A DNA stretch of 34,247 nucleotides from Bacteroidales bacterium (lineage in GTDB: Bacteria > Bacteroidota > Bacteroidia > Bacteroidales > UBA7960), in contig PUKZ01000034.1 in assembly GCA_003550725.1 (NCBI GenBank), positions 1-34,247 of the forward strand, in the 5' to 3' direction. Shown one piece after another: positions 20,520 to 26,247 of this stretch. The translations under genes were made by a program, and so were the position numbers. How positions within the stretch are numbered: the first letter of the stretch is position 1; each line of letters starts with the position of its first letter. The notes beneath the pieces were generated by a model that saw nothing but the letters and a program-made list of their open reading frames with translations, did not search any database and was not told where the DNA came from.

Positions 20520-21053
20520 ATGAACATTGAAGATACGTTTTACCTTGGCTCAATATCAAAAACAGTTGGATATAAAGGAGAATTAGCAGCTATTCTCGAT
20601 GTTGATGATCCGGAAAAATATAATGAACTGGAATCAGTTTTTTTATTAATTGAAAAAAAACTGGTTCCTTTTTTTATAGAAAAGTTATCATTTCGCCCCA
20701 ACAGTAACCATGTAATAATAAAATTCAGAGACATAAACAGCGAAGAAAAGGCTGAGCGTTTGGTTGATTCTGAATTACACTTACCGGCAGAAATGTTGCC
20801 ACCCTTATCAGGCAATCATTTTTACTTTCATGAAGTTGAAGGATTTCAGGTTTTTGATACCAGGTACGGCTATTTAGGCAAACTTGAAAAAATCCTGGAT
20901 TATCCCGGTAATCCTCTAATGCAAATATTAAAGAAAAACCGGGAAATACTTATACCTGTTAAAGATGAATTTATTAATGAAGTAGACCGGGAATCGGAAA
21001 AAATAGTTGTATCAACTCCTGATGGTTTAATAGACATTTATAATGATAATTGA
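20520..21053 (+). CDS. rimM: Ribosome maturation factor RimM
   Basis: 177 residues. RimM binds S19 and helps mature the 3' domain of the 30S subunit. The N-terminal RimM barrel begins YLGSISKTVGYKGELAAILDVDDPEKY. A PRC-barrel follows from ~98, with FYFHEVEGFQVFD, LGKLEKILDYPGNPLMQI and ILIPVKDEFINEVDRESEKI, ending DGLIDIY. Lengths and motifs are normal. It is 107 bp after rpsP, the common partner. Its stop codon lies inside the stem of its own terminator. Confidence 0.95.
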   Translation: MNIEDTFYLGSISKTVGYKGELAAILDVDDPEKYNELESVFLLIEKKLVPFFIEKLSFRPNSNHVIIKFRDINSEEKAERLVDSELHLPAEMLPPLSGNHFYFHEVEGFQVFDTRYGYLGKLEKILDYPGNPLMQILKKNREILIPVKDEFINEVDRESEKIVVSTPDGLIDIYNDN

Positions 21054-21078: not shown

Positions 21079-21104
21079 CATTTACATAAACATGGATCAA
21101 CAAT

Positions 21105-21155
21105 CTGTTGTACAATGATTTACACCTTTATGTTTAGATATTTAAATTTTTAGTG
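21105..21155. repeat. 51-nt direct repeat, copy A (3' of the hybrid kinase)
   Basis: Matches 24488-24538 without gaps in 45 of 51 positions and the same orientation; the longest identical run is ATGTTTAGATATTTAAATTTTTA. It lies in the intergenic space after the hybrid kinase gene. No gene and no promoter box was found in it. Confidence 0.75.
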
Positions 21156-21225: not shown

Positions 21226-23964
21226 TTATAAATATTTGCTTTCAACATGTTCTTTAAATTCCATGTACTTATCACTCATTAATGGAAACAGAGTTTTTAC
21301 CTGTTCAAAATTGTTCATTTCTACATGATATTCCATCCTTTTAGTGACCTCATGAACCTGTGAGGCTCCTATTGTTGCCGAAAGTCCTTTTACAGCAACT
21401 ATGATTTGTTTAACTAAACTTTGATCATTTTTTTTGAATGCATCTAATGATTGGTAATAATACTCATCCATATCTTCTATAAAAGAATTCAGAAGGCTTT
21501 TTATATTAACTTCATCGCTTACACCATGCTTAATAATATTATTAATAGTATTTTTATTAATAATTGGGTGATTTTCAATATTTGAAATAAAAAAGTCGTC
21601 AGGAATTAATCCCGGTTTTTCATACTCTTTTTTTATTTTGTTTTTCCAGTAAAATAGTTTTTCGGCTAATATTTCAATTCTAACAGGTTTTACCAGATAA
21701 TCTGTAAAACCAATATCATTATAGCTCTCTTCGGTATAATTATCCAATACACTGGCACTTAATCCTATAATAGGTGGCAATTCATCATATATCTTATGTA
21801 ATTCTTTAGTAGCAGCTATACCATCCATTACAGGCATGTACATGTCCATTATAATAATATCATAACTCACTTTTTCAAAAATCCCAAATGCATTAACTAT
21901 TGTTTCATGATACAACTCAATAGCTTGTTTGCCATCAGATGCAATTTTCACTTCGCATCCTATACTTTCTAACATCATGGAAAGCACCTTTTGGTTTTCT
22001 TCATTATCTTCAACAAGTAATACAGACATATTCAGATTACCTGGGATATCTTCTTTTGTAATAAACTGATCACTCCACGAATCTTTATCCGTACATTCTT
22101 TGTATTTAAATGTAAACCAAAATGTACTGCCTTTACCCGGCTCACTATTTACACCTATATCGCCTTCCAAAAGATTTACAAGGTTTTTGCAAATATATAA
22201 GCCGAATCCTTTACCAACTGAACCACTCTTATAATAAGAATTATGTAAAGCTTTAAACAAGAAAGTTTGATCTTCTTTCCTTATACCTACCCCCGTATCT
22301 TTTACTTCAGCATAAATATTATTATCAAAGCCTTCTCTTCGATCAATCTTGATATTAAGACCAACATAACCCTCTTTTGTATATTTTATACCATTTAACA
22401 ATAAATTGAAAATAATCTGGTTTACACGCTTTCCATCAACAAAAATATTTTCCGGTATTTTATCATCAATACAATAATGTAGATCAATTTTATTGTCATC
22501 AGTAAAGCGTTGCAAAGTCCCAATAATTCTTTCAACATTTTGTCGTATATTATAAGATCCAGGATATAATTGTAGTTTATCTGCTTCAATTTTAGAAATA
22601 TCAGAAATATCACTAATCATATTAATAAGTGTTTCTGATGAGTTTCTCAATGTTGAAAGATATTTTTGCTGTTTATTTGTTAAGTCTGTTTTAGACAAAA
22701 GACCAATCATGCCAATTATTTCAGTGAGAGGCGTTCGTAATTGATGACTGACTCCCGAAAAAAACTGCTGCTTTATTTCGGCTGATTTTTGCTTAATAAA
22801 TTTGTCTTTATCATGCTTCTGGCTTTGATCGTTCCATAAAACATCTTGCATTGTAATTAAAAATACATCAGTATTTTTATTTGAATCATACCTGGTTTTG
22901 CCACGGGAATAGATATGTCTTATATTTTTGCTTCTATCAATTATTCGGAAATAAATTGAAAATTCTTCGTTTTTATTTGCTAAGATTTCTTTATGATATT
23001 CTAAATACCTGGTTTTATCATCGGGGTGAATAACATCTAATATTTTATTATCGTCAAGGCTCATTATATTCTGATAATCATCAATATCCAACAGTTCAAA
23101 AAATATGTTATTATGAGTCAATTTATTTGTTACATGATCAATCTCACATATTCCCAGCCCAACGATTTTCTGTGCTTCTTTAATCTTTTCATTTTCTAAA
23201 ATGATCTTTTTTTCAGTATCTTTATTTTTAGATATATCACTAATTATCAATGTAATCCCAATGGCTTTATTATATATATCTTTCCTCAATGAAGCTTTAG
23301 CATGATACCATTTATTTTTATTTTGCTTTTTTATTTCAACTTCAAATTCCTGAACTATTTTAGTTTTAAATAAATTATCAAAACAGACATCTAACATCTT
23401 AACCAAACTATCAGGAAACACATTACTATAGTGTTTTTGTTCAGGTTTCTTAGTATTCAGTAAAACTTTATTGTTTTCATGGCTAGAATGCATATATTTA
23501 ATATAACCTTTGCAGTCAAAAGAAATCAAAATATCATCGATAGATTCTATTGTAGTGCGCAAAATTTCTTTTGTTTCTAAAAGTTCTTTTTTTACCTGGT
23601 GTCGATAGACGGCAATATCAATTGCCGAACGCAATATTCTTTCATCAAAAGGCTTAATAATAAAAGCATTGGGCTCTACCTTCATTAAACGTTTAATAGT
23701 TTTTTCATCGGATTGGGCTGTAACATAAACAACCGGCACATCCAAAAATGAAAGTATCTCAGAAGCAGTTTCAATAATATCTTTTTCACCATTCAGGTTA
23801 ATATCAAGAAGTATAAGATTGGGTTTCAGGTCTTTTGCTAACTTTACTGCATCATCACAATTATTAGCTTTAGCAAGAACATCACAATCCAATTGTTCTA
23901 ACTTATTGTATATATAATTTTTGGCAGTGCTTTTGTCTTCAACAAGTAAAATTTTGTTTTGCAT
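21226..23964 (-). CDS. Hybrid histidine kinase, REC-PAS-PAS-HisKA-HATPase-REC-Hpt, with degenerate Hpt
   Basis: 912 residues, no transmembrane segment. N-terminal receiver ~1-120 (Asp54 in LILLDINL, Lys104). Two PAS-like sensor regions ~129-250 and ~255-378, the second of PAS_3 type ([18 protein letters not shown]). HisKA ~397-462 with SHQLRTPL (His407). HATPase ~508-622 with N box [19 protein letters not shown] and GKGFGLYI. Second receiver ~646-775 with [13 protein letters not shown] (Asp707) and Lys759. Hpt-like domain ~805-905. In that Hpt the motif usually H-x-L-K-G reads V-A-V-K-G (Val856, GTT codon), so it cannot accept phosphate there. Start and end are clear. A stand-alone Hpt gene ends 29 bp upstream. 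There is no DNA-binding output domain. Confidence 0.93.
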
Positions 23965-23993
23965 ACCGGAAAGAATTAATATATATAATTATT

Positions 23994-24377
23994 CTATATC
24001 ATTTGATTTATAACCCTTTTGAACTCATGATAAAATGAAACTAATGTTGGTACCAATAATGAAACCTCCTCTAGATTATTTGTTATTATACTATTTTCAA
24101 TATCATTGGCAACTTTCATAAGCTTCGTTGCACCAACTGTTGCGGAAATGCCGGCCAAAGAATGAACTGGAGCTTTCAATTTTTTATAATTGCCTTTTTT
24201 AAAATGATCGTTTATAAGTTTAACCAAAATCTCAGCTTCAGAAAAATATGATAAATAAACCTCCCTGACAATTAACCTGTCTCCATCAGACTGTGATTTC
24301 AGTATTTCAAATGTGCCCATATCAAATACGTCATACTTATCATATTCTGATGATATATAATCATTTCCTCTCTCCAT
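23994..24377 (-). CDS. Stand-alone histidine phosphotransfer (Hpt) protein
   Basis: 127 residues, cytoplasmic. The Hpt core is APVHSLAGISATVGATKL with phospho-accepting His72; the Lys usually following in HxLKG is Ala75. The C-terminal helix pattern (VANDIENSIITNNLEEVSLLVPTLVSFYHEFKRV) aligns well with the end of the hybrid kinase ([21 protein letters not shown]), so the two Hpt modules are probable paralogues. In the family, Hpt passes phosphate between receivers. Here it would take it from Asp707 of the neighbouring kinase; the final receiver could be the kinase's own N-terminal receiver or a regulator elsewhere. Confidence 0.85.
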   Translation of the reverse strand: MERGNDYISSEYDKYDVFDMGTFEILKSQSDGDRLIVREVYLSYFSEAEILVKLINDHFKKGNYKKLKAPVHSLAGISATVGATKLMKVANDIENSIITNNLEEVSLLVPTLVSFYHEFKRVINQMI

Positions 24378-24487
24378 AAAATCTAATTATATAAGTGTTG
24401 TAAAAAACCTTTTCTAAAACTGAAATTATTTATTTAATAATTAAGTCAATCACAGATTATTTATCTGTATAAATTATAGTTATAAAA

Positions 24488-24538
24488 CTGTTTTACAATG
24501 ATTTACGTATTAATGTTTAGATATTTAAATTTTTAATG
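24488..24538. repeat. 51-nt direct repeat, copy B (between the helical-protein gene and the Hpt gene)
   Basis: 45 of 51 positions match copy A at 21105-21155, same orientation, no gaps. It lies 39 bp after the stop of the helical protein and 111 bp before the Hpt start. The two copies enclose the Hpt and hybrid kinase genes. Confidence 0.75.
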
Positions 24539-24576: not shown

Positions 24577-26247
24577 TTATTGGTTAATTGGAATTTCATT
24601 ATAACTGTTATTTAGTTTTTTAGAATTCAAATCATAAGTTATTAATCCTTTTTTGATCTGATTGAGCCTATAAACAACATTCTTTGCCGTATTATTAAAA
24701 ATTTCCGAATATTTTATTTTATCCTCAACCTTATCATTAATATTTTCTGAAATTCTTTGCCCCAACTGATCAACATCAGAACTTTTTTTCTTAAATTCCA
24801 TCACACTATAATACAGCTCTTCACTTAGCTTATTTAAATTATTTAATAACGAATCAAAATAACTTAATCCGTTTTTTTTAAGCTTAATAAATGTGTTTGT
24901 TTTTAATATTTCATTTTTTTGATCTATAACCTCATCAAATTTTTGCCTGAGTTTATTTTTTTCAAAATGACTTTTAGAATATATTTTAAAAATTTGCTGT
25001 GCTTTACATGCAATATTTTCATCTAAATTCAACAAAAATCCTCCTGAGTATATTTTATCAACAACTTTCATTTCAATAGCTCTTTCTTTCGTTTCGGCGT
25101 CAGAAAATTTTTCATTCAAGTTTTGAATAACTTTTTGAACATAGTTCATTTCTTCTGAAAACTCACGAAACTTTTCCAGTATTTCTGATAAATTGAATAT
25201 AAAAGATTTGAAATTATCATATACTTTTTCACCACATAACTGTTTGGAGGCAAACAGCTTGAATCCGTATAAAATACCGTTTACTTCTGCCCGACTATGC
25301 TTCATTTCAGTTAAAAATCTTTCGACAGAAGCTTGGTATTCTTTATTAATGTTAAAAATTTTTACTCCTTGGCTATCTGCAATTTGCAAAATATCTAATT
25401 CCTTGATTGCACCATTATTGTTTAAGCTATTACCATTAATCTTTATCAGTTTGTTTAACACATTATTATGAGTAACATGAAAATTTTCAGCGCTTTTATA
25501 AGCTCTCTTCTGATAATTAAGATTTGAAATGACGCTTTGTAATCTTTTATAATTTTCTTTTTTTAATTCCTCTATTTTATATGTGTCACTTAAATAATCA
25601 TCTGATTGATTCAAAATATTCATAATATCATTTACAATAAGCTCAATATTACACAGCAAACTTTCAAATTCTTTCTCTTTCAGTTTTACGAAATTTTGTT
25701 TAATAAAACTCAGATGTTTATTTAAAATAAGAACATTTTCTTCAATAACAGGATATAAATCCGATACTTTATCAATAGCTTTTTCAATCATAACAGACTC
25801 ATTAACATCAAAACCTTTTAAGTTTCTGACACAAGTCGTAGATGTAAGTTCAATATCGTCAAGTAAAGGTTTTAAAGAAGAAATATTTTGTTTATACCTG
25901 TCAAATAATTCAGGTATCATTTTAAGTTCTGTTATCAATTTATCCAATGACTGAAAGGATGCTTCAAACATATTGAGTAGTTCTGGTAAAAGAGATTTTA
26001 AGATATTAAAATCTTTAACTATTTCGTCTAAAAGCTTTTTGGTTCCATGTTTACCGGACAACTCAAATACCTGATCAATTTTTTCAGATAATGCAGTTAA
26101 AAGAGACAAATTATCTTGCAATTTGTCATTATAAGAGAGCTGATTATCTATATTCCACCTGTTTAGAGAGTTTATTTTTTCCTCAATTTCAAAAAAAACC
26201 GAAATGACGTTGTTGTCTTTGTTGCTTATTTCAAAAACTTCTTTCAT
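24577..26247 (-). CDS. Unrecognised long helical protein (putative coiled coil)
   Basis: 556 residues, no signal peptide, no membrane segment, no enzyme motif I recognise. Nearly the whole sequence is predicted amphipathic helix with Leu/Ile spacing suited to helical bundles, for example ELSGKHGTKKLLDEIVKDFN, ALSEKIDQVF, KAIDKVSDLYPVIEENVL and NEKFSDAETKERAIEMKVVD. It is rich in Lys, Asn, Glu, Ile and Leu and has a few scattered Cys. It recalls a chemoreceptor-like signalling rod without sensor or HAMP, but I see no methyl-accepting signature. Two signalling genes follow on the same strand (Hpt, hybrid kinase), 199 bp and more downstream. A role as scaffold or input partner is inference only. 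Confidence 0.6.
   Translation of the reverse strand: MKEVFEISNKDNNVISVFFEIEEKINSLNRWNIDNQLSYNDKLQDNLSLLTALSEKIDQVFELSGKHGTKKLLDEIVKDFNILKSLLPELLNMFEASFQSLDKLITELKMIPELFDRYKQNISSLKPLLDDIELTSTTCVRNLKGFDVNESVMIEKAIDKVSDLYPVIEENVLILNKHLSFIKQNFVKLKEKEFESLLCNIELIVNDIMNILNQSDDYLSDTYKIEELKKENYKRLQSVISNLNYQKRAYKSAENFHVTHNNVLNKLIKINGNSLNNNGAIKELDILQIADSQGVKIFNINKEYQASVERFLTEMKHSRAEVNGILYGFKLFASKQLCGEKVYDNFKSFIFNLSEILEKFREFSEEMNYVQKVIQNLNEKFSDAETKERAIEMKVVDKIYSGGFLLNLDENIACKAQQIFKIYSKSHFEKNKLRQKFDEVIDQKNEILKTNTFIKLKKNGLSYFDSLLNNLNKLSEELYYSVMEFKKKSSDVDQLGQRISENINDKVEDKIKYSEIFNNTAKNVVYRLNQIKKGLITYDLNSKKLNNSYNEIPINQ

Follow-up and report, generated by a model that had tools for sequence, protein, structure and literature searches.

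A conserved Hpt domain without phospho-histidine in a predicted hybrid kinase of a Bacteroidales family, encoded next to a stand-alone Hpt protein

Hpt domains that have lost their phospho-accepting histidine are already known from CheA-type kinases, where their role was described as undetermined (PMC10542144) or unknown (PMC12632253). In ChpA and in the CheA3 proteins of Rhodobacteraceae, these His-less domains (Xpt) likewise belong to kinases of chemosensory systems, but they lie within CheA, with active Hpts in the same chain (PMC10542144, PMC12632253). In the locus described here, the kinase is a hybrid kinase of the HisKA type and the active Hpt is provided in trans. Plant pseudo-histidine phosphotransfer proteins of the AHP6 type (PMC3572949) are also Hpt-like with the acceptor His replaced, and they occur beside His-bearing relatives of the same system. 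However, AHP6 is a separate inhibitor protein, whereas in the present locus the kinase carries the pseudo-Hpt as a fused domain and it is the active Hpt that is separate. As for the kinase, CheS3 of Rhodospirillum centenum is likewise a hybrid kinase with receivers inside a Che-type cluster, being alike in this setting alone (PMC3868531). HmrA of Caulobacter is a hybrid kinase proposed to signal via separate Hpt proteins, one of which, HmrX, is not encoded adjacent to the kinase gene (PMC11481889). DivL, also of Caulobacter, is a repurposed HisKA-type kinase (PMC4211667); here, the HisKA His was lost in relatives and not in the kinase under study. The exact phrase 'degenerate Hpt' in combination with 'histidine kinase' gave no match in the literature searched.

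We analysed a stretch of 34,247 nucleotides from a Bacteroidales genome (assembly GCA_003550725.1, contig PUKZ01000034.1), called the window below. Three consecutive genes on its minus strand encode an all-helical protein, a stand-alone Hpt and a hybrid histidine kinase (Table 1). The domain order of the kinase is REC1-PAS-PAS-HisKA(His407)-HATPase-REC2(Asp707)-pseudo-Hpt, with PAS, HisKA, HATPase_c and two Response_reg domains over their Pfam cut-offs. It thus combines a HisKA domain bearing His407, HATPase_c and a receiver bearing Asp707, as expected of a hybrid histidine kinase; these residues and the ATP-site motifs, described as intact in a preliminary description of the locus, are all present in the window. 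Asp707 is kept in every kinase that was aligned. The protein is best explained as a predicted cytosolic hybrid kinase originating from a chemosensory gene module.

Table 1. Features of the locus and of related loci (positions without a prefix refer to the window)
Feature	Position	Strand	Basis or remark
Hybrid histidine kinase, 912 aa	21226..23964	-	Pfam domains; 12 further genomes of the family have orthologues
Fused pseudo-Hpt domain, residues 803-912	21229..21558	-	No phospho-His, motif KG retained
Codon GTT of Val856, Hpt phospho-histidine position	21397..21399	-	Alignment
Stand-alone Hpt, 127 aa, HSLAG motif	23994..24377	-	Pfam, alignment, tree, profile search
Codon CAT of His72, presumed phospho-acceptor	24162..24164	-	Alignment
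All-helical protein, 556 aa, third gene of the conserved unit	24577..26247	-	No Pfam family
rimM, flanking marker of the same locus in relatives	20520..21053	+	Gene order
rpsP, flanking marker together with rimM	19648-20412		Gene order
Intergenic repeat of ~65 nt, two copies	21102-21155, 24485-24538
Kinase of G002	L088:9251-11989		HisKA His replaced by Tyr
Kinase of G013	L094:8784-11528		HisKA His replaced by Asn
Degenerate REC + pseudo-Hpt proteins, 281-284 aa	L112:11628-12479, L113:7894-8736, L114:3052-3894, L179:7936-8778
Helical protein copies at contig ends	L174:3421-5220, L175:9546-11384		CheA linkage presumed
Further copy of the helical family	L169:5862-7697
Second set of kinases with His-less Hpt	L106:6778-13928, L103:5899-12548, L101:31-5179, L100:3934-9609

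The fused domain lacks the phosphorylatable His of the HxxKG motif that a functional Hpt carries. Its motif begins II-V856, and Val856 falls into the His column both in alignments and, independently of these, in a profile comparison with solved Hpts, in agreement with the loss of His that had been noticed before; the GTT codon was also borne out, while its earlier position (21395-21397) was two bases off. The domain scored 18.8 bits against the Pfam Hpt profile (PF01627), i.e. below the cut-off of 24.6. A 12-row profile of the fused domains matched solved Hpts (PDB 7c1i, E 2.5e-6), and the predicted model of the domain is all-helical, with pLDDT mostly between 85 and 94. Altogether 13 orthologous kinases from three genera (g1, to which the window belongs, g5 and g8) were found in the family, the window's own included and the copy of G069 being partial. 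None of the 13 has His at the fused position, which is always V, M or L (V, V, M and L in g1, M or L in g5, M and M in g8). All fused domains of the kinases share the Lys and Gly of the motif, and the GA, SF and DM residues are invariant as well. A replacement acceptor elsewhere in the fused domain was ruled out, as none of its His residues is invariant.

Could the Val codon be a sequencing or assembly error, as the preliminary description had considered? The window belongs to a draft genome (195 contigs), but two substitutions separate GTT from a His codon, and His is likewise missing from 12 independent orthologues, so that the loss is common to relatives. We reject this explanation as having a practically negligible probability. 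As for the origin of the loss, the nearest homologues outside the family all have His, and the closest fused Hpt among them, in a hybrid kinase of G185, reads HTVKG. In the tree, the His-less fused domains cluster together beside the fused Hpt of G185 (support 87/79, not starred). Because this nearest outside domain has retained His while all family members are without it, the simplest reading of the sequences is that His was lost in one old event, before the genera of the family split, and that this state was conserved afterwards. A relative with a His-bearing fused Hpt and no stand-alone one had been expected to contradict a division of labour between the two Hpts. Such a fused Hpt does exist in G185, outside the family and on a short contig, and it reads as the ancestral state.

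Another explanation would be that the fused domain is a relic without function, retained merely as the tail of a working kinase. The residue that defines the Hpt family is indeed gone and the separate Hpt would be able to do the job; nevertheless, we consider this decidedly unlikely. The fused domain appears constrained like other domains across distant genera: besides the invariant residues given above, a hydrophobic residue always occupies the position of the lost His in the kinases. The mean identity of pseudo-Hpts within a genus is 0.52 (g1) or 0.67 (g5), and that of PAS domains 0.51-0.55. Since the identity of the pseudo-Hpt thus matches or exceeds that of the PAS domains, and in g5 equals that of REC2, its pattern does not look like that of a decaying relic.

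The relic explanation is further weakened by four genomes (G006, G008, G014 and G023) where the pseudo-Hpt has outlived the kinase core. At the kinase locus, these keep just a degenerate REC followed by the pseudo-Hpt, in a protein that has 284 aa and a stand-alone Hpt alongside in G006, and 281 aa and no adjoining stand-alone Hpt in the remaining three. In all four genomes the remnant has rpsP as a neighbour, and in three of them rimM could be located as well. The receiver of these remnants has lost both its acidic pair and its Lys, and T, V, I or V stands at the Hpt position. Kinase-core loss that left REC and pseudo-Hpt was seen in two genera. From this, one might suppose that the pseudo-Hpt and its receiver neighbour are themselves the selected output, a receiver-binding decoy working without phosphate, and that two genera dropped the kinase and kept the pair. 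We regard this as rather unlikely.

The gene directly upstream of the kinase gene, on the same strand and 29 nt away, encodes a 127-residue Hpt with His72, as previously described, in the context APV-H72-SLAG-ISATVGA. This protein has the phospho-His and scored 28.7 bits against PF01627, above the cut-off of 24.6, and its profile matched plant Hpts (4pac, E 3e-13). The usual Hpt motif has Lys at position +3 from His. Here, each of the 14 clade members with His has Ala or Ser instead, and because the usual Lys is absent, the phosphotransfer chemistry of the stand-alone Hpt may be unusual. The gene is located directly upstream of the kinase, on the same strand and with gaps of -7 to 71 nt, in 11/11 readable genomes. 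The predicted split between a hydrophobic residue in the fused Hpt and His in the stand-alone one was recovered in nine of the 11 genomes. The other two, G001 and G002, belong to the same genus as the window; in them the stand-alone position is Gln and the Gly at +4 is lost too, leaving neither Hpt with a His.

The two Hpts had been regarded as paralogues whose C-terminal halves align closely. These shared C-terminal motifs are indeed found, but the two domains are only 24% identical overall and form separate lineages in the tree. All 16 stand-alone sequences fall into a single clade (98/97) that excludes the fused ones; the latter group with the His-bearing fused Hpt of another family. Moreover, the stand-alone Hpt scored 36.7 bits against the fused domain, but 50.5 bits against a further Hpt that the same genome encodes on contig C134. 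Because of this and its own clade, the term paralogues seems to hold in a broad sense only. A recent local tandem duplication of the two Hpts is disfavoured by tree and similarity, although trees with stand-alone and fused Hpts forced together were not rejected (p-AU 0.117 and 0.166).

The earlier picture lacked the chemosensory context of the locus. In G025 and G070, the Hpt-kinase pair lies between MCP and CheR inside a complete Che cluster, with rimM-rpsP close by. The cluster order, read in both genomes (its domains were scanned in G025), is helical (coil)-STAS-like-CheY-CheY-CheA-CheW-MCP-Hpt-kinase-CheR-ATPase-CheD-CheB. The window, G002 and G013 keep no more than the helical protein, Hpt and kinase together, beside rimM (and rpsP where the contig covers it). 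The genome of the window carries its Che cluster on a separate contig, C17, where the helical protein is encoded a second time. We also observed that two copies of an intergenic repeat of about 65 nt flank the Hpt-kinase pair of the window, and that about 20 more copies are scattered over the genome.

The D-x-x-x-Q motif is the active-site motif of CheZ. A CheZ-like motif of this form, YHDIIRQ, was present in 9/9 CheA-linked copies of the helical protein, counting copies only probably linked owing to a contig edge, and in 0/11 of the others, including that of the window. The helical family had no Pfam match over cut-off for CheZ; against PDB sequences the helical protein gave nothing beyond coiled-coil noise, and Foldseek returned no match at E 0.001. 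None of these searches supports an identification of the helical neighbour as CheZ, and its CheZ likeness can be taken as a lead only.

The common cluster raises another possibility, namely that the stand-alone Hpt serves mainly CheA/CheY or other receivers rather than the kinase, and that the two genes are adjacent because they share a chemosensory cluster. In addition to its place in the full Che clusters of G025 and G070, the stand-alone Hpt persists with its His in six genomes without an intact kinase, namely next to the remnant of G006 and in G022, G027, G029, G031 and G033, where this kinase is missing. It is because of these six genomes that the stand-alone Hpt would seem to have, or to have had, partners besides the kinase. 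On the other hand, all six genomes are also without CheA, the latter five, all of g5, retaining the helical protein and the Hpt; and wherever the contig permits a check, the kinase comes with the stand-alone gene. This explanation, too, appears fairly improbable to us.

We then compared the state of the kinase with the presence of CheA. Among the 11 genomes whose kinase shows no loss of the HisKA His (the residue was read in 10 and is not covered by the sequence of G069), CheA was found in ten, G003 being the exception. Of the remaining 36 genomes, only G024 has CheA. Catalytic residues or the whole kinase thus appear often to be lost where CheA is absent. Any single absence is uncertain in draft genomes, and this pattern rests on many genomes that are not phylogenetically independent. 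Two kinases of genomes without CheA are otherwise intact and have lost the HisKA His, with Tyr in G002 and Asn in G013. A Tyr at the phospho-His position is also found in DivL.

Such cases could be taken to mean that the whole module is now a phosphorylation-independent scaffold, like the pseudokinase DivL. In G002, the HisKA His became Tyr, the stand-alone His became Gln and the fused position is Met, yet the genes are all intact and colinear; the replacement in G013 and the lack of the CheZ-like motif in every helical protein copy not linked to CheA point in the same direction. However, the window retains His407, Asp707, His72 and the ATP-site motifs and its genome has CheA. We find a pure scaffold very unlikely.

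We propose, with moderate confidence in the model as a whole, that the relay runs via His72 of the stand-alone Hpt as long as the circuit is active and that the pseudo-Hpt is retained as a receiver-docking module independent of phosphorylation. In the organism of the window, phosphate would pass from His407 to Asp707 and on to His72 of the stand-alone Hpt, which would then hand it to another receiver, for example REC1 of the kinase or a CheY. This relay, which had been suggested previously, is plausible for the window but is not conserved even within its genus, given the Gln of the stand-alone Hpt in two congeners and the lost HisKA His of G002 and G013. The pseudo-Hpt would stay folded and dock without being phosphorylated on a receiver, either its own REC2 or a CheY-type partner. 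On the model of the plant pseudo-Hpts, it may compete with the stand-alone Hpt or gate its access to the receiver. Where the chemosensory system was lost, catalytic residues would have decayed, with two genera eventually left with the degenerate receiver and the pseudo-Hpt.

The docking or regulatory role that had been assigned to the fused domain is a reasonable one, since it is conserved as a domain. As the whole lineage kept it, usually beside a working copy, it probably serves as a binding module. The predicted model of REC2 with the pseudo-Hpt has a pTM of 0.49, too low for the docking geometry to be read. A fold search with the same pair returned receivers only; REC2 fills the list, which therefore says nothing on the pseudo-Hpt.

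A second set of kinases was observed in g5. These have 1337-1549 aa and Q, K, S or E at the His position of their fused Hpt, and the adjoining partner, which is an 811-aa kinase, a kinase covered in part or a small protein, has His. Judged from sequence, this set is in line with, and supports, the idea that a His-less fused Hpt is tolerated or favoured beside a His-bearing partner.

Taken as a natural series, the family and its relatives lead from an ancestral His-bearing fused Hpt to a His-less fused domain with an active partner in trans, then to further catalytic loss, and finally to REC and pseudo-Hpt alone. Because the family offers this series, the function of a pseudo-Hpt becomes directly testable.
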